A DNA stretch of 64,000 nt from Niastella koreensis GR20-10 (GTDB lineage Bacteria > Bacteroidota > Bacteroidia > Chitinophagales > Chitinophagaceae), in contig NC_016609.1 in the NCBI RefSeq assembly GCF_000246855.1, positions 6,894,744-6,958,743 of the forward strand, given 5' to 3'. Each line of letters starts with the position of its first letter. The stretch's first letter is position 1. Of the stretch, positions 594-10,509 are shown piece by piece. The translations under genes and the position numbers were made by a program. Under the pieces are notes generated by a model. The model did no database searches. It saw only the letters and a program-made list of their open reading frames with translations, and had not been told where the DNA came from.

Positions 594-1457
594 ATGCTAC
601 AGTCAAGTACCATTCAACTACTCAGGTTCCACTTTTCGTTCTTCCTGTTACCGGTGTACCTGTTTGCTGTAAGCCAGGTGCCTGTTATTAATACTACCCA
701 TGCAGTATTGATATTTTTCATCCTGCATTTCCTGGTGTATCCTTCCAGCAATGGGTACAACTCGTACATGGACCACGATGAAACGCCAATTGGCGGCATA
801 GAGCGTCCCAAACAGCCAACACGCCAGTTATTTTATGTAAGTATTGTCATGGATGTGACGGCCATCATATTAAGTCTTTTTATCAGCTACTGGTTTACTA
901 TTTGCATAATAGCTTATATAGCCGCCTCAAGAGCATACAGCTACCGGGGCATCCGGTTAAAAAAACACCCGATAGCAGGCTATGCAATTGTAATTATATT
1001 TCAGGGCGCCGTAACGTATTTTATGGTTTATCACGGAAGCAGCATTGACAAAACGTTAACAATACCACCGGCCAATATGGTGGCGGCGAGTTTACTTATC
1101 GGTGGCTTTTACCCGCTCACGCAAATTTACCAGCACGAAGCCGATAAAAAAGACGGCGTAATTACCATCAGCGCTTTATTGGGTTACCGCGGTACTTTTA
1201 TTTTTGTGGCACTAGTCTACACCCTGGCCATGAGTGTGCTGGCGATGTCGTACTTCGCGCATAACGAACAAAAAAAATTCTTCTTGTTAGCAACTGTAAT
1301 GCTGCCAATTCTCGTATATTTTTTCAGGTGGGCAGGTTTGGTGTGGAAAGACGTTGGCAATGCCAATTTTACCAATACCATGCGAATGAATATGCTGGCA
1401 TCTGTCTGTACCAACCTTGCATTCCTTACCTTATTAATCTGGAGGGGTTTTGAGTAA
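594..1457 (+). CDS. UbiA-family prenyltransferase of a type III PKS operon
   Basis: This is an integral membrane protein of 287 residues with about eight hydrophobic segments. It carries both Asp-rich motifs of the UbiA superfamily: an N-x-x-x-D-x-D motif at residues 56-62 followed by P-I-G-G, and D-K-K-D at 184-187. UbiA enzymes transfer an isoprenyl chain from its diphosphate to an aromatic or quinone acceptor, using Mg2+ held by these Asp residues. I chose the ATG at 594. An earlier in-frame start at 504 would put the terminator and inverted repeat into the protein. The stop overlaps the TTG start of the type III polyketide synthase by 8 bases, so the two are translationally linked. By inference it prenylates the polyketide made by the next gene; the donor is unknown. 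A role in menaquinone synthesis is less likely given the neighbours. Confidence 0.8.
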   Translation: MLQSSTIQLLRFHFSFFLLPVYLFAVSQVPVINTTHAVLIFFILHFLVYPSSNGYNSYMDHDETPIGGIERPKQPTRQLFYVSIVMDVTAIILSLFISYWFTICIIAYIAASRAYSYRGIRLKKHPIAGYAIVIIFQGAVTYFMVYHGSSIDKTLTIPPANMVAASLLIGGFYPLTQIYQHEADKKDGVITISALLGYRGTFIFVALVYTLAMSVLAMSYFAHNEQKKFFLLATVMLPILVYFFRWAGLVWKDVGNANFTNTMRMNMLASVCTNLAFLTLLIWRGFE

Positions 1458-2550
1458 AATTATTGCCATTGGTACCGCAGTGCCCGCATTCCGGCACAGG
1501 CAGGAAGACATTCTGCAATTCATGCAGCTTATTTATTCGTATTCGGATGCCGACAAACGCCGGTTACGTTTTCTGTACCACCAAAGCCATATAGATACCC
1601 GTTATTCCGTGATCCCCGATTACAGCCGGCCCTGTCCCGAATGGAAATTTTATCCGCATACCGAGAACCTGGAACCATTTCCGTCGCTTGAGCTGCGTAT
1701 GAGCTGGTATCACAAATATGCGCCGCAGTTATCGGTGAACGCTATCCGCGATTGTATGGATGGGAAATTACCAGAATCGGAGATCACGCATTTGATCACA
1801 GTGAGCTGTACGGGCCTCAGCGCCCCCGGGCTTGACCTGCAGGTAATGGAGCTGCTCGATCTGCCGCGGAATACTGCGCGTTCTTCCATCAACTTTATGG
1901 GCTGCTACGCCGGCGTTCACGCCCTGAAAACTGCCGACGCTATTTGCCAGGCCGATAAACAGGCAAAAGTATTGATCGTTTGCACGGAGCTGTGCACGTT
2001 ACATTTTCAACGGGAGGCAACGATGGATAACATTGCATCGAGCCTGTTATTTGCCGATGGCAGCGCCGCTGCGGTGGTTACTGCCGATGAACACCCGCTG
2101 AAAGGCCTGCACCTGGATGGGTTTTATTCGGAAGTGATCCCCAAAGGCAAAAAAGATATGGCCTGGGAAGTATCTTCCACCGGTTTTCTGATGACGCTGA
2201 GCAATTATATTCCCGACCTGCTCGAAGAAGATTTTGCCGAACTTACCAGCAGGGCGCTGGCCAAAAACGGGTTATCGAAACAGGAAATTTCGCACTGGGC
2301 TATACACCCCGGCGGAAAAAAGATCCTGGAAACCGTTCACAAAACCCTGTCGTTTCAAACAAACGAACTGCAGGCTTCGTATGACGTTATGCAGCAATAT
2401 GGGAATATGTCGTCTGCAACCATTTTTTTCGTACTCAAAAAAATGGCGCCTGCCCTCCTGCATAACCACAACGGAAAAGAACACATTTTTGCCGCAGCAT
2501 TTGGGCCTGGCCTTACTATGGAAACATTTGTAGCATCAACGAATTGCTAA
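1450..2550 (+). CDS. Type III polyketide synthase (chalcone/stilbene synthase family)
   Basis: The 366-residue length is typical of type III polyketide synthases. The catalytic triad is complete: Cys152 in F-M-G-C-Y-A-G, His286 in I-H-P-G-G, and Asn319 in Y-G-N-M-S-S. The family uses an acyl-CoA or acyl-carrier starter and several malonyl-CoA units to build triketide/tetraketide pyrones or resorcinols without an acyl carrier protein. The start is TTG at 1450, just behind GGAGGGG (1441-1447) and overlapping the end of the prenyltransferase gene. No ATG lies near the N-terminus, and the M-S-K-I-I-A-I-G-T-A-V-P beginning fits the family. Downstream methyltransferase and flavoprotein genes give the same set as the Streptomyces srsABC operon for methylated phenolic lipids, plus a UbiA enzyme. 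Starter and chain length cannot be read from the sequence. Confidence 0.9.
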   Translation: MSKIIAIGTAVPAFRHRQEDILQFMQLIYSYSDADKRRLRFLYHQSHIDTRYSVIPDYSRPCPEWKFYPHTENLEPFPSLELRMSWYHKYAPQLSVNAIRDCMDGKLPESEITHLITVSCTGLSAPGLDLQVMELLDLPRNTARSSINFMGCYAGVHALKTADAICQADKQAKVLIVCTELCTLHFQREATMDNIASSLLFADGSAAAVVTADEHPLKGLHLDGFYSEVIPKGKKDMAWEVSSTGFLMTLSNYIPDLLEEDFAELTSRALAKNGLSKQEISHWAIHPGGKKILETVHKTLSFQTNELQASYDVMQQYGNMSSATIFFVLKKMAPALLHNHNGKEHIFAAAFGPGLTMETFVASTNC

Positions 2551-2610
2551 TATTTCAACCAGTTAGCACAGGGGTTTCGCGGGTCAGGCAGAAAGTCATA
2601 TATTACAAAC

Positions 2611-3306
2611 GTGAATTTTCGCCACCGATCATATCAATCCGAATTGCTCGACCGCCCGGATATTCCTTTTGAAGACATAAAAAGGAATATGCAGGAGTTA
2701 AATTTCATCAACACCTGGCTGGGCGGACATGCCATTACCATCAAGGGCCTGGCCGCATTGTTGAAAACGAAGGGGCCGATCACTATATGTGAAATTGGCT
2801 GTGGCGGCGGAGATAACCTGGTGGCCATAAAAAAGTGGTGCGATAAAAGAAGTATTCCCGTCGCTTTTATTGGCATTGACATCAACCCGCATTGTATTGA
2901 AGTGGCGGCCAAACGGTTACTCAGTAATATTCAGTTGATCACCTCCGATTATAAAGATGTAGAACTGGAAACACCACCGGATATAATTTTTTCCTCCCTG
3001 TTTTGTCATCATTTCTCCGACCGGGAAATGGTAAAACAATTGCAATGGATGAAAACCAATGCCCGGCTTGGGTTCTTTATAAACGACCTGCACCGGCACA
3101 AGGCAGCTTATTATTCTATTAAAGTACTGACTAACCTGTTTTCGAAAAGCTACCTCGTTAAACACGATGCACCCTTATCTGTAGCCCGCGGTTTTAGCAA
3201 AGATGAATGGATCCAGTTTTTCAGCATAGCGGGTATTCCTGATTATTTTATAGAATGGAAATGGGCCTTTCGCTGGCTGATTGTATCAAAAAACAATTGT
3301 GATTAA
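2611..3306 (+). CDS. Class I SAM-dependent methyltransferase (PKS operon tailoring)
   Basis: This 231-residue protein has a Rossmann-type methyltransferase core. Motif I is E-I-G-C-G-G-G-D-N at residues 61-69, an acidic loop F-I-G-I-D-I-N follows, and the D-I-I-F-S-S-L-F-C-H-H-F stretch acts as motif IV. The predicted start is GTG at 2611, about 60 bases after the polyketide synthase stop and 8 bases upstream of the flavoprotein gene in the same operon. By analogy with SrsB it would O- or C-methylate the aromatic polyketide; this is inference. The family is large, so substrate specificity cannot be taken from the motifs. Confidence 0.8.
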   Translation: MNFRHRSYQSELLDRPDIPFEDIKRNMQELNFINTWLGGHAITIKGLAALLKTKGPITICEIGCGGGDNLVAIKKWCDKRSIPVAFIGIDINPHCIEVAAKRLLSNIQLITSDYKDVELETPPDIIFSSLFCHHFSDREMVKQLQWMKTNARLGFFINDLHRHKAAYYSIKVLTNLFSKSYLVKHDAPLSVARGFSKDEWIQFFSIAGIPDYFIEWKWAFRWLIVSKNNCD

Positions 3307-3314
3307 CCTGTAAC

Positions 3315-4454
3315 GTGAGCCTACAACCCAAATATGATATTGCCATCGTGGGTGGTGGACTGGCCGGGCTTGCTCTGGCCATTCAAAGCGCGCGTGCCGG
3401 TTATAAGACCGTATTGTTTGAACGGGAGAAATATCCCTTTCACAAAGTTTGCGGTGAATACATCAGCCTGGAAAGCTGGAATTTTTTACAGGACCTCGGT
3501 TTGCCGCTGAGCGATATGCAGCTGCCTATTATCAACCGCCTGCTTATTACAACGCCTAATGGGAATTACATTGAATCTACCCTACCCTTAGGCGGTTTTG
3601 GCATCAGCCGGTATTCCATTGATAAACTGCTGGCCGATATTGCCCGCCAGGAAGGCGTTACCCTGCTGGAAGAAACCAAGGTGGTGAATGTTGTTTATCG
3701 CAACAACAGCTTTTTACTGTTCACCAATAAAGGCGATTCAGAGGCAACTGTGGTAGCAGGCGCCTATGGTAAACGCGGCAACCTGGATATAAAATGGAAA
3801 CGACAATTCACAAAAGTTAAGCCCAATAAACTTAATCATTATATTGCAGTCAAATACCACATCCGCACCCATCACCCTGCCGACCTGATCGCCCTCCACA
3901 ATTTTGAGAACGGATACTGTGGAATTTCCCAAATTGAGGAAAACAAATATTGTCTTTGTTATTTGACTACGGCCGCTAACCTGCGTAAATGCCGGAACGA
4001 TATTAGTAGTATGGAAAAGGATATTCTCATGAAGAATCCTTTTCTTGAGAAAATATTTTCCAATGCCGAAATGTTATACGAGGAGCCGTTAACCATTTCC
4101 CGGATCTCATTCAATAAAAAAACACAAGTTGAAAACCATGTTTTGATGATTGGCGACACTGCCGGCCTTATTGCACCACTATGTGGCAATGGCATGAGCA
4201 TGGCGCTGCACAGCAGCAAACTCGCCTTTGAAGAGATCAATTCGTTTTTACAGGGACGAATTAACCGGTATGAAATGGAAATTCAATACACCGAGCAGTG
4301 GGAAAAATTTTTTGGCCGGCGCCTGCAGGCTGGTCGACTGTTACAAAGCTTCTTTGGAAGCCCAATCCTATCCAACGTACTCATAAAACTGGTCAAGCCC
4401 TTTCCAAAGTTTGTAGCGTTCCTAATTCGTCAAACTCATGGTAAACCATTTTAA
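3315..4454 (+). CDS. FAD-dependent oxidoreductase/monooxygenase (PKS operon tailoring)
   Basis: This 379-residue flavoprotein of the geranylgeranyl-reductase/PHBH type starts with GTG at 3315. The N-terminal ADP-binding motif G-G-G-L-A-G lies at residues 13-18. K-V-C-G-E-Y follows near residue 46, a spot that contacts FAD in this family. The second FAD motif G-D-T-A-G lies at 280-284, followed by the P-L-C-G-N-G-M-S-M-A helix. It has no clear membrane helix. In context it could hydroxylate the resorcinol to a hydroquinone/quinone, as SrsC does, or reduce the prenyl chain as geranylgeranyl reductases do. The sequence alone does not decide between these. It overlaps the following outer-membrane protein gene by 17 bases. 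Confidence 0.8.
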   Translation: MSLQPKYDIAIVGGGLAGLALAIQSARAGYKTVLFEREKYPFHKVCGEYISLESWNFLQDLGLPLSDMQLPIINRLLITTPNGNYIESTLPLGGFGISRYSIDKLLADIARQEGVTLLEETKVVNVVYRNNSFLLFTNKGDSEATVVAGAYGKRGNLDIKWKRQFTKVKPNKLNHYIAVKYHIRTHHPADLIALHNFENGYCGISQIEENKYCLCYLTTAANLRKCRNDISSMEKDILMKNPFLEKIFSNAEMLYEEPLTISRISFNKKTQVENHVLMIGDTAGLIAPLCGNGMSMALHSSKLAFEEINSFLQGRINRYEMEIQYTEQWEKFFGRRLQAGRLLQSFFGSPILSNVLIKLVKPFPKFVAFLIRQTHGKPF

Positions 4455-5892
4455 CAAAAAGTGGTTGTTGCACGCTCTATGGTTACTTCTGGTTCACATA
4501 AATGGTTACTCGCAGAATTACTATGCGCTTCAGGGTAGTAATTATGCAGGCAGCCTGGGCGTTGGCAATAACCCCGCCTCCATCTTGAATACTCCTTACA
4601 AATGGGATGTTACCATTTTAGGAGTACAGAAAAAGAATGCCACCAACAGCATCATTATTCACAACTGGTCGTTGTTCAGCAATCCCGCTAAATCGCAGTA
4701 TAGTATTAAGGATGGCGATTTCAGGCGGTTTGCCTATGACGATATTAATGTTAACCTGCTCAATACCCGCATTGCCCTCAACCGCAACAAAGCTATTGCC
4801 TTTGGGTTGAACCTGCGCAGTTACACAGAGGCAAGTACCAGTAAGCTCAACTATATAGATACCGTCACCAGCACCCGCGATTTTTTTGACCTCGGCAATT
4901 ACAACCGTAAACTGTTTGGCGATTTCACACACAGCGCCTGGATGGAATTCTATGTTACCTGGGCGCAAACCATCTGGGACAATGCCGATACCCGCCTGAA
5001 CGCCGGTGTTACAGCCAAAATATCCCGGGGCATCAGCGGCGGCTACATCAATATTCTGAACGGCAGCGCCACACCAACGGTGCATAACAATATCAGCGAT
5101 TATACCCTGCAGGATGTGTTTGCCGAATACGGCTACTCCAGCAATTACGATAACTGGAAAAAAGGAAAAAGCACCAGCCAGAACATGCGCGATTTTTTAA
5201 GCCATGCCCAAACCGGCTTTTCTTTTGACCTGGGCATTGAATACCTGGTTAAATCGCAACAGATCACTACCGTTTGGGACGATGATACGTATTACGATTA
5301 CGACTGGAAGATTGGCCTGTCGTTGCTTGACATAGGATTCAATCAATTCAACTATGGCATCCAAAGCCGCAAGGTCAGCGGCTTTCAGCCAAATGTGACT
5401 GACACGGTGGTGGACATCAGGTTCGCCGACATTCACAAACTGCAAGACTTTAACGACGACCTGCCCGGCATTGTCAAAAACATTCAACAACCCAGGGGAA
5501 TGTTTCATGTAATAAACCCTGCCCGGCTGGTGCTGAACGTCGATCGCTTTATTATGGGCGCCTGGTATATAAACGGCAATGCATCACTAAACCTGTCGTC
5601 GCTAACCGGCAGCCAATGGCGGCTTACTGAATTGAATATGTTAACCGTTACTCCCCGTTGGGAAACCCGGCAGATGGGATTTTTCCTACCCATCCAGTTT
5701 AACACCAAAGAACAACTATGGGTAGGCGGTGCAGTAAAATTCGGCCCCCTGTTATTAGGTATCCACAACTGGGCCAATGTATTCAGTAAAAATAAAATGC
5801 AAAACGGCGGCGCCTACCTGGCCCTGGTATTACGACCGAACAGCAATACTGCCAAACGCCTCGATAAAAGACTCGACTGTCCGCCAAGATAA
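4438..5892 (+). CDS. DUF5723-type outer-membrane protein
   Basis: The 484-residue protein begins with a signal peptide (K-K-W-L-L-H-A-L-W-L-L-L then a cut near Y-S-Q). The next segment, Y-Y-A-L-Q-G-S-N-Y-A-G-S-L-G-V-G-N-N-P-A-S-I, is a typical start of DUF5723 proteins. The rest is rich in alternating aromatic/hydrophobic strands that suggest an outer-membrane beta-barrel. Its start lies 17 bases inside the end of the flavoprotein gene, so it is co-translated with the polyketide operon. That raises the inference that it handles or is affected by the lipid product, but DUF5723 proteins occur widely in Bacteroidota without such neighbours. Function unknown. Confidence 0.7.
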   Translation: MVNHFNKKWLLHALWLLLVHINGYSQNYYALQGSNYAGSLGVGNNPASILNTPYKWDVTILGVQKKNATNSIIIHNWSLFSNPAKSQYSIKDGDFRRFAYDDINVNLLNTRIALNRNKAIAFGLNLRSYTEASTSKLNYIDTVTSTRDFFDLGNYNRKLFGDFTHSAWMEFYVTWAQTIWDNADTRLNAGVTAKISRGISGGYINILNGSATPTVHNNISDYTLQDVFAEYGYSSNYDNWKKGKSTSQNMRDFLSHAQTGFSFDLGIEYLVKSQQITTVWDDDTYYDYDWKIGLSLLDIGFNQFNYGIQSRKVSGFQPNVTDTVVDIRFADIHKLQDFNDDLPGIVKNIQQPRGMFHVINPARLVLNVDRFIMGAWYINGNASLNLSSLTGSQWRLTELNMLTVTPRWETRQMGFFLPIQFNTKEQLWVGGAVKFGPLLLGIHNWANVFSKNKMQNGGAYLALVLRPNSNTAKRLDKRLDCPPR

Positions 5893-5905
5893 TTTCGGTT
5901 AGGCC

Positions 5906-5936
5906 GGGCATTTGTTAAAAATTACTGCCCCTCGGT
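5906..5936 (+). terminator. Possible terminator after the PKS operon
   Basis: GGGCA at 5906-5910 can pair with TGCCC at 5926-5930 over a 15-base loop, with a GGTTTTTCTT tract just after. The stem is short and the loop long, so this is a weak call. Confidence 0.35.
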
Positions 5937-6006
5937 TTTTCTTGTTATTTTAGATCTTACCATCGAGATGCTGACCACATTAGTCAATCAAAAACCAGAT
6001 TATCGC

Positions 6007-6426
6007 ATGAAAAAATTATTGGCATCTATCTCTTTACTGTTTTGCATTTTCCTTTGTTCTGCACAAACCGATACGATTAAACGGGTAAATAAATCAGCCG
6101 ACGACTGGGATAAAACCTACGTAAAAGTGGAAAGGGAAGCCTACTTCCCGGGTGGCCAACGCGCCTGGCTCAGTTTTTTGCAGGAGCACCTTGAATATCC
6201 GGCTAAAGCAAAACGAAAAAACATTCAGGGCACTGTGGTAGTACAATTCATAGTAGATAAAGATGGGACCCTTAGCTACATAGAGGCCATCAGCGGACCG
6301 GAACAGTTAAGACAGGCCGCTGTGAACGTGATCAAAAAATCACCCAATTGGACCCCCGCTTCCCAGAACGGCTACAACGTAAAGTCTTATAAAAAACAAC
6401 CGGTTGGTTTTGCTTTACAACAGTAA
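6007..6426 (+). CDS. Small secreted TonB C-terminal-domain protein
   Basis: The protein of 139 residues has a signal peptide (M-K-K-L-L-A-S-I-S-L-L-F-C-I-F-L-C-S-A-Q) followed by a TonB C-terminal domain over roughly residues 45-135. The family pattern is clear: F-P-G-G, L-E-Y-P-A-K-A, N-I-Q-G-T-V-V-V-Q-F-I-V, and a final F-A-L. I chose the ATG at 6007 because it opens the signal peptide; an upstream in-frame ATG at 5968 would add 13 polar residues. Unlike classical TonB it has no Pro-rich spanning region, so it cannot reach across the periplasm by itself. Role unknown; it may bind TonB-dependent receptors as a periplasmic partner. A strong terminator follows. Confidence 0.75.
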   Translation: MKKLLASISLLFCIFLCSAQTDTIKRVNKSADDWDKTYVKVEREAYFPGGQRAWLSFLQEHLEYPAKAKRKNIQGTVVVQFIVDKDGTLSYIEAISGPEQLRQAAVNVIKKSPNWTPASQNGYNVKSYKKQPVGFALQQ

Positions 6427-6573: not shown

Positions 6574-7335
6574 ATGAAACCCTTACAACTGGTCCTGACC
6601 GCCCTCCTGCTAACAGGCACGGCCCTTAGTTACGGGCAGCGTAATAAAAAAGCAGCTGAGGCTTTTTTTTCATTTGATGAAAACTGGAAAGATGCCGGTA
6701 TAGATAAAGCGACTTATTTTATCCGGCGTACCAAAGTAAGCGATACCTGCTGGCAATTTGATACGTACAATATGTATGGGCCAATGATCAGATCTGAACA
6801 ATGTAGCGACGAGAAGGGCACTATTGCACATGGGAGGTTTACCATTTTCAACGCAAAGGGAAAAACAGATTCCATTTGCAATTACTCAAAGGGGCTCCCC
6901 CACGGCGACTGGTACATCTATAACGATCCCTTTTATGATATAAAGCTCACGTATGAAATGGGTGTGCTGGTAGATACTAAAAAAGCAGTGAAGGTAAAGG
7001 GTACTAAACCCAAAGACAGCCTGGCAAAGGGGGAGAAAGAATCTGAATTTAAAGGCGGACTCACGGCCTGGCAACGATACCTGACCAGGAACCTGGAATA
7101 CCCGCAACGTGCATTAAAAGCCAACATCCAGGGCGAGGTCACCGTTGCCTTTGAAATTGACACAACCGGTAATATCCCCAACTCCTATATTTGGCGTTCC
7201 GTTGAATTTTCCCTCGATGAAGAAGCATTACGCATCATTCGCAAATCTCCCCGCTGGGAACCTGCCGTTCAGGATGGCCAGTTGAAAAAATCATACAAGC
7301 ACCAACCCATGATATTCAGATTACCTGCACGATAA
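6574..7335 (+). CDS. Secreted protein with C-terminal TonB domain
   Basis: This 253-residue protein has a signal peptide (cut near S-Y-G-Q), a central region of about 120 residues with G-P-M-I-R-S, G-R-F-T-I-F-N-A-K-G-K and G-L-P-H-G-D-W-Y-I-Y motifs, and a TonB-C domain over residues 155-250. The central motifs look like toxin-antitoxin-type MORN (Y/F-x-x-G-x-x-x-G-x-W) repeats, which in Bacteroidota often precede TonB-C. It resembles a longer paralogue of the preceding gene, sharing L-E-Y-P-x-x-A and N-I-Q-G-x-V-x-V, so the pair probably arose by duplication. There is no membrane anchor beyond the signal peptide. Function unknown, probably periplasmic. Confidence 0.7.
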   Translation: MKPLQLVLTALLLTGTALSYGQRNKKAAEAFFSFDENWKDAGIDKATYFIRRTKVSDTCWQFDTYNMYGPMIRSEQCSDEKGTIAHGRFTIFNAKGKTDSICNYSKGLPHGDWYIYNDPFYDIKLTYEMGVLVDTKKAVKVKGTKPKDSLAKGEKESEFKGGLTAWQRYLTRNLEYPQRALKANIQGEVTVAFEIDTTGNIPNSYIWRSVEFSLDEEALRIIRKSPRWEPAVQDGQLKKSYKHQPMIFRLPAR

Positions 7336-7346
7336 CTTTCAATAAG

Positions 7347-7378
7347 TTTTGAAAATTCAGAAACACATCTTATCTTTG
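7347..7378 (+). promoter_or_regulatory. Bacteroidota-type promoter of the GbsR gene
   Basis: TTTTG at 7347-7351 and TATCTTTG at 7371-7378 are 19 bases apart. This fits the Bacteroidota -33/-7 consensus (TTTG, TAnnTTTG). The ATG is 10 bases after the -7 box, so the leader would be very short. Confidence 0.65.
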
Positions 7379-7388
7379 GATTGTAAAT

Positions 7389-7895
7389 ATGAAACTGGCA
7401 GAAGCGCAACAACAATTCATTGCTTCCTGGGGAGCATTCGGCACGCATTGGGGCATTAACCGCACCATGGCGCAGATCCATGCGCTGTTGATGATTAGTC
7501 CCGACCCTTTGAGCCAGGACGAGATCATGGAACAACTCAGCATCAGCCGCGGTAATGTGAATATGAACATCCGCGACCTCATAGACTGGGGGCTGGTAAG
7601 CCGGGTGCTGATACAAGGAGAACGAAAAGAATTCTTCTCTGCGGAAAAAGACATCTGGAAAGTGGCCACGCAAATTGTAAAGGAGCGTAAGAAACGGGAG
7701 CTGGACCCAATGCTGCGCCTGCTGGATCAGCTGGAAGATATCGAGGGCGATAAAAAAGATAAGCACGCCAAACAGTTTACCGAAACCATTGGCAACATCC
7801 GCAAGTTTGGTCAGCAGGCCGATAAAATGCTCGACACTATGGTGAAGGCCGATGAGAACTGGTTCCTTGGCAGTTTGCTGAAGTTCTTTAAATAG
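7389..7895 (+). CDS. GbsR/MarR-family transcriptional regulator
   Basis: The 168-residue protein has a winged-helix fold of the GbsR branch of MarR. The segment I-N-R-T-M-A-Q-I-H-A-L-L leads into the DNA-binding part L-S-Q-D-E-I-M-E-Q-L-S-I-S-R-G-N-V-N-M-N-I-R-D-L, with a wing at about 75-90 and a C-terminal dimer helix. GbsR proteins usually repress osmoprotectant or transport genes in response to a small ligand. The gene is alone, with its own promoter and a terminator at 7942-7966, so its target is not evident from context. It could act on the neighbouring DCC/epimerase pair; this is a guess. Confidence 0.85.
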   Translation: MKLAEAQQQFIASWGAFGTHWGINRTMAQIHALLMISPDPLSQDEIMEQLSISRGNVNMNIRDLIDWGLVSRVLIQGERKEFFSAEKDIWKVATQIVKERKKRELDPMLRLLDQLEDIEGDKKDKHAKQFTETIGNIRKFGQQADKMLDTMVKADENWFLGSLLKFFK

Positions 7896-8043
7896 GTTTG
7901 TGGTTTGTAGTTTGTTGTTGCTGGCGCACTTTGAGATCACTAAGCATTTGCATGCTTTATTATTTTAAATGTTTTGAATTTAGCATTAGTAGCGAACCTG
8001 ATTTAATAACAACCACAAACCTCAAACCATAAACTACAAACAG
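7895..8043. repeat. Imperfect inverted repeat of GTTTG words around a terminator
   Basis: A left arm built from GGTTTGTGGTTTGTAGTTTG (7895-7914) faces a right arm of CAAACCTCAAACC and ACTACAAAC words (8010-8041). The arms enclose about 90 bases that hold a hairpin terminator. The right arm is nearly the same as one at 14213-14240, so this is a dispersed element present at least twice in the window. Confidence 0.6.
7942..7966 (+). terminator. Intrinsic terminator after GbsR
   Basis: AAGCAT (7942-7947) pairs with ATGCTT (7952-7957) over a four-base loop and is followed by TATTATTTT. Confidence 0.55.
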
Positions 8044-10067: not shown

Positions 10068-10098
10068 TTTTGTTTACCCGGAAAATATTATAGTTTTG
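10068..10098 (+). promoter_or_regulatory. Promoter of the CoA-binding protein gene
   Basis: TTTTG (10068-10072) and TAGTTTTG (10091-10098) are 18 bases apart and fit the Bacteroidota consensus. The -7 box covers a possible TTG start at 10096, so translation should begin downstream at 10132 or 10138. Confidence 0.55.
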
Positions 10099-10131
10099 AA
10101 CCACAACCAATTGAGTAAAAAGGTTGTTGTA

Positions 10132-10509
10132 ATGGGTATGGAAACAGGTAGTAAAAAAACGATAGTACTGGGCGCATCCGCCAATCCCGCCCGCTATAGC
10201 TTTCTGGCAATAAACAGTTTACGTAAGCATCAGCACCCGGTAGTAGCCGTGGGTCGCAGGATGGGAAAAGTACTGGATGTAGATATTATCACCGAAAAAA
10301 AGCCCCAGGAAACAATTGATACAGTTACGTTATACCTGAACCCCGCCAATCAGAAAGAATACTACGATTATATACTAAGCCTGCGCCCAAAACGTATTAT
10401 ATTCAACCCCGGCACCGAAAATCCGGAGTTATCCGAGCTGGCCAAAAGCAATGGCATCCAACCCATGGAGGCATGCACTTTAGTGCTCCTGAGCACGGGT
10501 CAGTACTAA
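10132..10509 (+). CDS. CoA-binding domain protein
   Basis: A small protein of about 125 residues with the CoA-binding Rossmann-like fold: I-V-L-G-A-S-A-N-P-A-R-Y-S near the N-terminus, H-P-V-V-A-V-G-R, then Y-L-N-P-A-N-Q, I-I-F-N-P-G-T-E-N-P-E, and A-C-T-L-V-L-L at the end. Such stand-alone domains bind CoA or a related nucleotide; their cellular role is unknown. I chose the ATG at 10132 (10138 is equally possible) because the upstream TTG at 10096 lies inside the predicted -7 promoter box. Monocistronic. Confidence 0.75.
   Translation: MGMETGSKKTIVLGASANPARYSFLAINSLRKHQHPVVAVGRRMGKVLDVDIITEKKPQETIDTVTLYLNPANQKEYYDYILSLRPKRIIFNPGTENPELSELAKSNGIQPMEACTLVLLSTGQY

Follow-up and report, generated by a model that had tools for sequence, protein, structure and literature searches.

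We analysed a stretch of 64,000 nucleotides of the Niastella koreensis GR20-10 genome (contig NC_016609.1, positions 6,894,744 to 6,958,743; hereafter the window). Near its start, on the forward strand, the window carries an operon encoding a UbiA-superfamily protein, a type III polyketide synthase (PKS), a class I S-adenosylmethionine-dependent methyltransferase (MT) and a flavin adenine dinucleotide-dependent oxidoreductase of the geranylgeranyl-reductase superfamily type (the flavoprotein; FAD in gene orders). We read this operon as the Bacteroidota version of a hierridin-like cassette with a dedicated, atypical UbiA protein that would prenylate the polyketide ring, a reading that we judge about equally likely to hold or to fail. 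The four genes stay together in nearly all relatives surveyed, this UbiA subfamily keeps company with a single PKS clade across the phylum, and relatives of the PKS-MT-FAD part exist elsewhere with no UbiA gene adjoining them.

Gene content and conservation of the operon

The UbiA gene (594-1457; 287 amino acids) matched PF01040 with 59.3 bits against a cut-off of 34.2; its relatives align from position 594, and a longer start at 504 is possible. The PKS gene (1450-2550; 366 amino acids; TTG start) matched both PF00195 (100.5 bits) and PF02797 (94.2 bits) above the cut-offs. Its catalytic residues Cys152, His286 and Asn319 (codons 1903-1905, 2305-2307 and 2404-2406) were invariant in all 25 aligned sequences, in line with the type III PKS with complete Cys-His-Asn triad reported by the first-pass annotation. 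The MT gene (2611-3306; 231 amino acids) and the flavoprotein gene (3315-4454; 379 amino acids) were likewise confirmed, the former by PF13649 (39.3 bits). In NCBIfam, the MT matched PRK06202 with 120.5 bits, below the cut-off of 243. The genes had been described as overlapping, which holds for the UbiA and PKS genes (8 bp) and for the flavoprotein gene and a DUF5723-like gene that follows it (4438-5892; 17 bp), whereas the PKS and MT genes are 60 bp and the MT and flavoprotein genes 8 bp apart. The genome is a single contig of 9,033,684 bases in which the window PKS is the sole match to PF00195, and the named relatives nearest to this PKS are Niastella.

Conservation of the gene set was surveyed in the 80 best of 338 confirmed PKS relatives in a genome collection, and this sample of named loci is therefore biased to close kin. 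Most of the titles name Chitinophagaceae or its genera, and the rest Bacteroidetes, Sphingobacteriales or an uncultured bacterium. The UbiA gene was located directly upstream of the PKS gene in 79 of the 80 loci, the single miss being at a contig end. Downstream of the PKS gene, the MT and flavoprotein genes were each present in 74 loci; there was room for the gene in four of the six misses of the MT and in one of the six misses of the flavoprotein. Far from being rarely adjacent in related genomes, an outcome that the first-pass annotation had named as a refutation, all four genes were present in the order UbiA>PKS>MT>FAD in 65 of the 68 loci that had room for them both upstream and downstream. 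A DUF5723 gene followed the flavoprotein gene in 24 of the 80 loci (23 of the 67 with room). Given these frequencies, we consider the four genes to be the core and the DUF5723 gene an extra.

The UbiA protein and its tie to one PKS clade

The AlphaFold model of the UbiA protein (predicted local distance difference test score, pLDDT, 95.8) was closest in a fold search to the Archaeoglobus UbiA 4tq4_A (Z 24.1; root-mean-square deviation, rmsd, 3.4; 271 residues aligned). Ranks 1-11 were all UbiA-type membrane enzymes, followed by polyprenyl synthases with Z of at most 15.0. The protein thus has the domain and, in its predicted model, the membrane helical fold of UbiA prenyltransferases. These enzymes are defined by two Asp-rich motifs, NDxxDxxxD and DxxxD. 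In the window protein the two sites read N56-S-Y-M-D60-H-D62 (codons 759-779) and Q180-H-E-A-D184 (codons 1131-1145), that is, NSxxDxD and QxxxD instead of the canonical forms. In an alignment of 116 sequences, all taken from PKS-bearing loci, residues N53, N56, S57, D60, D62, Q177, Q180 and D184 were each identical in 116 of 116. Of the earlier claim that both Asp motifs are present, the UbiA assignment and the two motif sites therefore stand, while the motifs themselves are noncanonical. In profile alignments, Q180 falls opposite the first Asp of motif 2 of the Aeropyrum UbiA (4od4; read by eye) and an Asp of chlorophyll synthase opposite Q177. Furthermore, the residues Y115, S116, R121 and K123, which are also invariant in all 116 sequences, lie opposite the YS...LKLK stretch of chlorophyll synthase, and this supports the proposed prenylation.

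Four other UbiA-like places were found in the window genome, one of them below the cut-off. A haem-O-synthase-like protein, named by its motif (L267), does not have DxxxD at its second motif either, which leaves activity possible for a UbiA protein with an altered second motif. L268, MenA/UbiA-like by motif, reads NRYLDREFD, and L269, of the NDYFDxxxD type by motif, reads NDYFDLNID and has an Asp-rich second stretch. With four other UbiA-like places in the genome, it is unlikely that the window protein serves as its respiratory quinone enzyme. The window UbiA is a putative prenyltransferase that probably acts on the polyketide ring.

PF00195 exceeded the Pfam cut-off in 208 of 395 genomes of the phylum and in 105 of 195 genomes of the family. 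Since 3 of 14 control genomes also exceeded it, and E. coli and others gave matches too, some of the proteins counted are probably FabH-like. From the lists, 120 stretches were fetched that had been picked to cover genera, and 43 of these carried a PKS of the window kind (profile score at least 388 bits; the next score was 374, a narrow gap). A UbiA gene was present in the same stretch for 37 of the 43 and in none of the remaining 77, which comprised 39 stretches with MT and FAD matches (FAD>MT>PKS or PKS>MT>FAD), 6 with an MT only and 32 with neither. The arrangement UbiA>PKS>MT>FAD is that of the window's family; in most other families of the class and in family f13 the UbiA gene is divergent from PKS>MT, and in family f10 the PKS has no adjoining MT or FAD gene.

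The co-occurrence of the two proteins was then scored with an alignment of the UbiA subfamily (A1) and one of the PKS clade (A2). The UbiA subfamily scored at least 335 bits in 26 of the 395 phylum genomes (next scores at most 156), and the PKS clade at least 484 bits in 26 of 395 (next 444). The two sets of 26 genomes were identical, and the other 369 had neither protein at those scores. In 6 of the 26 (G146, G158, G166, G190, G072 and G387) the UbiA gene was located elsewhere in the genome, away from the PKS stretch. Of the 195 family genomes, 83 carried both proteins and 108 carried neither; the PKS occurred without the UbiA in 2, and the UbiA without the PKS in 2. In each list the PKS clade was delimited by the widest gap in score, so that the cuts for the phylum (484 versus 444 bits) and the family (424 versus 234 bits) differ, and four family PKSs, with 424-436 bits, rank under the best PKSs of family f24. 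Twelve family genomes gave only a lower-scoring PKS match, and all of them lacked the UbiA. Among the exceptions with one protein only, G420 carries PKS fragments on two contigs, and in G546, which has no PKS match, the UbiA gene lies 551 bases from a contig start. These scores are partly circular because some of the scored loci had gone into A1 and A2; the standalone UbiA proteins (L282-L287) are outside A1. The scoring covered first-look candidates (at most six per genome in the phylum UbiA search) in genomes that are related to one another and in part incomplete. Fisher p-values for the family counts take no account of this relatedness and carry little weight. That the UbiA protein is tied to one PKS clade, even when the genes are unlinked, argues for action in the same pathway.

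An MT-like gene adjoins the standalone UbiA gene in four of the six genomes (L282, L284, L285 and L286). Two of these neighbours were scanned; one matched a Pfam family, and the other, that of L284, matched none. This latter type, identified by eye, occurs in three genomes of one genus, where the MT-like genes are located at 7024-7818 (L284), 5370-6155 (L285) and 7123-8034 (L286). A second UbiA group is present in family f24 (possibly Flavobacteriaceae), where UbiA matches of 120-156 bits were obtained in 34 genomes, each of which also has a type III PKS. The six f24 UbiA proteins inspected (L288-L293) all carry NSxxDxD and QxxxD, and their 10-kb stretches contained no PKS profile match near the UbiA gene. 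A link of the f24 UbiA to the mevalonate pathway found no support, the two neighbour types scanned being a thioredoxin-like protein and one with no Pfam match.

In a PKS tree of 80 rows, the 33 rows of the window kind grouped on a single branch (support 99/92); 32 of these came from UbiA-bearing genomes and one from a Psychrobacter plasmid. The f24-type and Deinococcus PKSs formed a group neighbouring this UbiA clade and the FAD>MT>PKS group was far off; because of long branches, several of the outside rows are unsure in place. The Psychrobacter urativorans plasmid (L257, 5995-8818) has its MT and FAD genes on the strand opposite to the PKS gene, and this PKS, nested within the Bacteroidota UbiA clade, is perhaps the result of a cross-phylum transfer.

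Related cassettes and the chemistry of the PKS and flavoprotein

PKS, MT and FAD genes also occur together, with no UbiA gene in the 13-kb stretch, on plasmids of Psychrobacter, Deinococcus, Roseomonas, Paludisphaera, Falsirhodobacter and Sphingobium, and these cassettes span Deinococcota, Planctomycetota and Proteobacteria. The strands differ within the Psychrobacter and Sphingobium cassettes. UbiA gave no match at E 1e-3 on the plasmid records (the hosts' chromosomes were outside the search). In addition, an unannotated Paenibacillus replicon carries PKS-MT-FAD by profile with no UbiA beside it. The Microbacterium PKS stretch appears fragmented, and the stretches of Streptomyces DpgA and of R. 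etli contained no PKS-MT-FAD cassette.

The picocyanobacterial hierridin operon hidABC combines an MT, an oxidoreductase and a type III PKS to make a methylated, hydroxylated alkylresorcinol (PMC10896814, PMC8086630). We liken it to the window by description only; it differs in gene order and in that the described set has no UbiA, while one Raphidiopsis cluster among the hierridin clusters described has a prenyltransferase (PMC8086630). According to a planctomycetal study, 58 of 96 PKS genes lie in an MT-oxidoreductase-PKS operon, expressed planctomycetal PKSs yielded C15 and C17 alkylresorcinols, and one methyl group, thought to be on carbon, was added when the MT and FAD enzymes of Gimesia were expressed together (PMC10896814). 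A conserved myxobacterial alkylpyrone cluster has been described as well (PMC12766979). Like the hierridin-like cassettes, the window has a PKS with an adjoining class I MT and an FAD oxidoreductase, in the order UbiA-PKS-MT-FAD and not MT-oxidoreductase-PKS. The closest published gene set that we found is this three-gene operon of the hid and planctomycetal kind, so that for three genes out of four the pathway is of a known kind. The suggestion of a probable new pathway is thus narrowed to one new element, the dedicated and atypical UbiA.

The Paludisphaera cassette (L260) has the three functions of the Planctomycetota operon, with TIGR02032 as the best flavoprotein model, as in the window, and its PKS shares C120, A125, C182 and H185 with the window PKS. 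It differs from the window in its order MT-FAD-PKS, in having no UbiA in the stretch and in a PKS that falls outside the Bacteroidota clade; Paludisphaera is not named among the expressed species in the excerpts of PMC10896814. The Deinococcus radiodurans plasmid cassette agrees with the window in functions and in the order PKS-MT-FAD, and differs in its PHBH/UbiH-type flavoprotein, in the absence of UbiA from the stretch and in a PKS that groups with the f24 type. Streptomyces srsABC reportedly follows the same logic of PKS, MT and flavoprotein without a UbiA, and srsB is said to be a membrane methyltransferase of another family. In the cannabinoid route of Cannabis, a resorcinol made by a type III PKS is prenylated by a UbiA enzyme, as we propose for the window. 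That route differs in its plant enzymes, in another flavoenzyme and in having no methyltransferase, and our comparison was limited to the PKS fold (6gw3).

The predicted PKS model (pLDDT 92) best matched 4b0n_A (Z 49.3, rmsd 2.1, 361 residues aligned), and rows 2-50 of the fold search, with Z from 48.9 to 46.6, were lipid-type and plant enzymes intermixed. Residues T121, A125 and C182 align with T144, A148 and C205 of Pks18 (1tee is its C205F mutant), which we take to line the acyl tunnel. This is compatible with a long-chain alkylresorcinol as product, but is not proof of it. The signature E-L-C-T/S-L/I-H (residues 180-185) is common to the UbiA clade, the f24 type, Deinococcus and Paludisphaera.

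For the window flavoprotein, TIGR02032 scored 98.1 bits, below its cut-off of 158.8, and a UbiH model scored lower, with 36 bits; by these scores TIGR02032 is the nearest superfamily model and the protein is not a member. The same model was best in the Paludisphaera, Paenibacillus, Sphingobium and Falsirhodobacter cassettes, in a divergent-UbiA locus (L150) and in an FAD>MT>PKS locus (L164), and weakly so in Psychrobacter. PHBH/UbiH-type monooxygenase models were best for the Deinococcus flavoprotein and one f24 locus (L180). A halogenase was considered and rejected: the PDB matches include halogenases, but the WxWxIP motif that we take to mark them was absent by eye.

The DUF5723-like protein of the window gave no Pfam match at E 1, and among four relatives that were scanned only one (L079) matched PF18990 (78.1 bits). 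The DUF5723 outer-membrane protein of the first-pass annotation is thus retained as a peripheral neighbour named through a relative. The placement of the product in the cell envelope had leaned mainly on this gene, and is weakened by its limited spread among the named loci. Upstream, the operon is adjoined by the C-terminal part of a flotillin-like gene (3-452); among the named loci, matches to it turned up in Niastella, in Longitalea and in an isolate of the Chitinophagaceae (L063). Downstream are genes for a MarR-like regulator and a coenzyme A-binding protein (PF13380), at 7389-7895 and 10096-10509, which are kept in many of the 80 loci, either as regulators or as mere travellers.

Proposed pathway and competing explanations

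From the gene set, we infer a pathway in which the PKS would start from an acyl group, probably that of a long-chain fatty acid, and extend it with malonyl units to give an alkylresorcinol-type ring. The MT would then methylate a carbon or oxygen of the ring, the flavoprotein would hydroxylate the ring to a hydroquinone or quinone, and the membrane UbiA protein would transfer the prenyl group of a prenyl diphosphate to the ring, resulting in a membrane meroterpenoid lipid. The fact that the FAD gene is kept with PKS and MT genes where no UbiA adjoins argues that the flavoprotein acts on the polyketide and not on the prenyl chain. The methylated, oxidised and possibly prenylated polyketide of the first-pass annotation survives in this form through the conservation of all four genes, with a chemistry that we infer.

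Several observations weigh against this pathway. As the first-pass annotation had already stated, no characterised product of the Bacteroidota gene set was found in the full-text literature, covered by titles and abstract openings and with most subscription journals outside coverage. Identities between the window and Paludisphaera proteins are 34% for the PKS, 24% for the MT and 23% for the flavoprotein. The fold neighbours of the modelled PKS are nearly tied and do not separate product classes, and the starter specificity is unreadable from the sequence. Instead of hydroxylating the ring, the flavoprotein may act as a reductase; in the excerpts of PMC10896814, the role of the FAD enzyme is left open for the planctomycetal cassette too. 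The second UbiA motif does not have its first Asp, and activity could therefore be lost or changed. Moreover, UbiA gave no match in two genomes of the family that retain PKS-MT-FAD (G447 and G454) and none on the Psychrobacter plasmid whose PKS belongs to the clade, which indicates that UbiA is not strictly needed.

These last points bear on the alternative that survives best, although we consider it unlikely: a hierridin-like, methoxylated or C-methylated alkylresorcinol or hydroquinone, with a non-prenylating UbiA protein in another transfer or binding role. Noncanonical motifs that are invariant in all 116 sequences would fit such a protein, as would the cassettes with no adjoining UbiA, both elsewhere and in G447 and G454. 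However, the protein retains the UbiA fold and, on the diphosphate side, most of the residues of these enzymes, and the altered second motif is shared by the haem-O-synthase-like protein of the same genome.

Slightly less probable still is a polyketide-headed respiratory-type quinone, for which the PKS would make the ring, UbiA would attach a long polyprenyl tail, and the MT and flavoprotein would act as in ubiquinone biosynthesis to give a membrane electron carrier. UbiA, MT and flavoprotein are together the enzyme set of prenylquinone pathways, the window UbiA has the membrane prenyltransferase fold, and separate UbiA proteins are available in the genome for other routes. A respiratory role is, however, difficult to reconcile with the 108 of 195 family genomes that have neither gene (some of them incomplete), for which the pathway is hence not essential, nor with a flavoprotein that also accompanies PKS and MT with no adjoining UbiA and so seems independent of the prenyl chain.

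In contrast to the hydroxylation favoured here, the nearest model of the flavoprotein could point to a geranylgeranyl-reductase-type enzyme that saturates the prenyl chain after UbiA has prenylated a phenol, as in chlorophyll and archaeal lipid synthesis. We regard this as improbable, since the score is below the TIGR02032 cut-off and the same model is also best in PKS-MT-FAD cassettes with no adjoining UbiA, such as those of Paludisphaera and Sphingobium. There is an equally small chance that the PKS makes a malonyl-primed ring of the tetrahydroxynaphthalene or 3,5-dihydroxyphenylacetate type, prenylated afterwards as in actinobacterial naphthoquinone meroterpenoids: its best NCBIfam match is DpgA (NF042429, 157.2 bits) and its Cys120 is at the position of chalcone synthase Thr132, presumably also a Cys in tetrahydroxynaphthalene synthase, but the DpgA score is far below the cut-off of 425 and the Streptomyces DpgA (L265, on a long branch) falls outside the PKS clade, so that we reject a DpgA-like function on score and tree position.

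Returning to a polyketide that is prenylated by the window UbiA, we tentatively suggest, with more doubt than confidence, that Bacteroidota possess an ancient, vertically inherited route to a prenyl lipid or quinone with a polyketide head. In such a pathway the PKS would replace chorismate as the source of the head, and a UbiA protein with NSxxDxD and QxxxD motifs and a rewired metal site would carry out the prenylation. The UbiA gene also serves as a marker for the type III PKS clusters of the phylum, separating the clade linked to it from several groups that have no UbiA of this kind nearby. We predict that a lipid dependent on both the PKS and the UbiA protein is present in cultured members of the Chitinophagaceae, Niastella among them. 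If the suggestion is true, this lipid would be a bacterial meroterpenoid, cannabinoid-like or plastoquinone-like, that has been missed in routine lipid work, and it would add a class of bacterial meroterpenoids or quinones, a UbiA subfamily whose metal site is altered, and bacterial resorcinol prenyltransferases.

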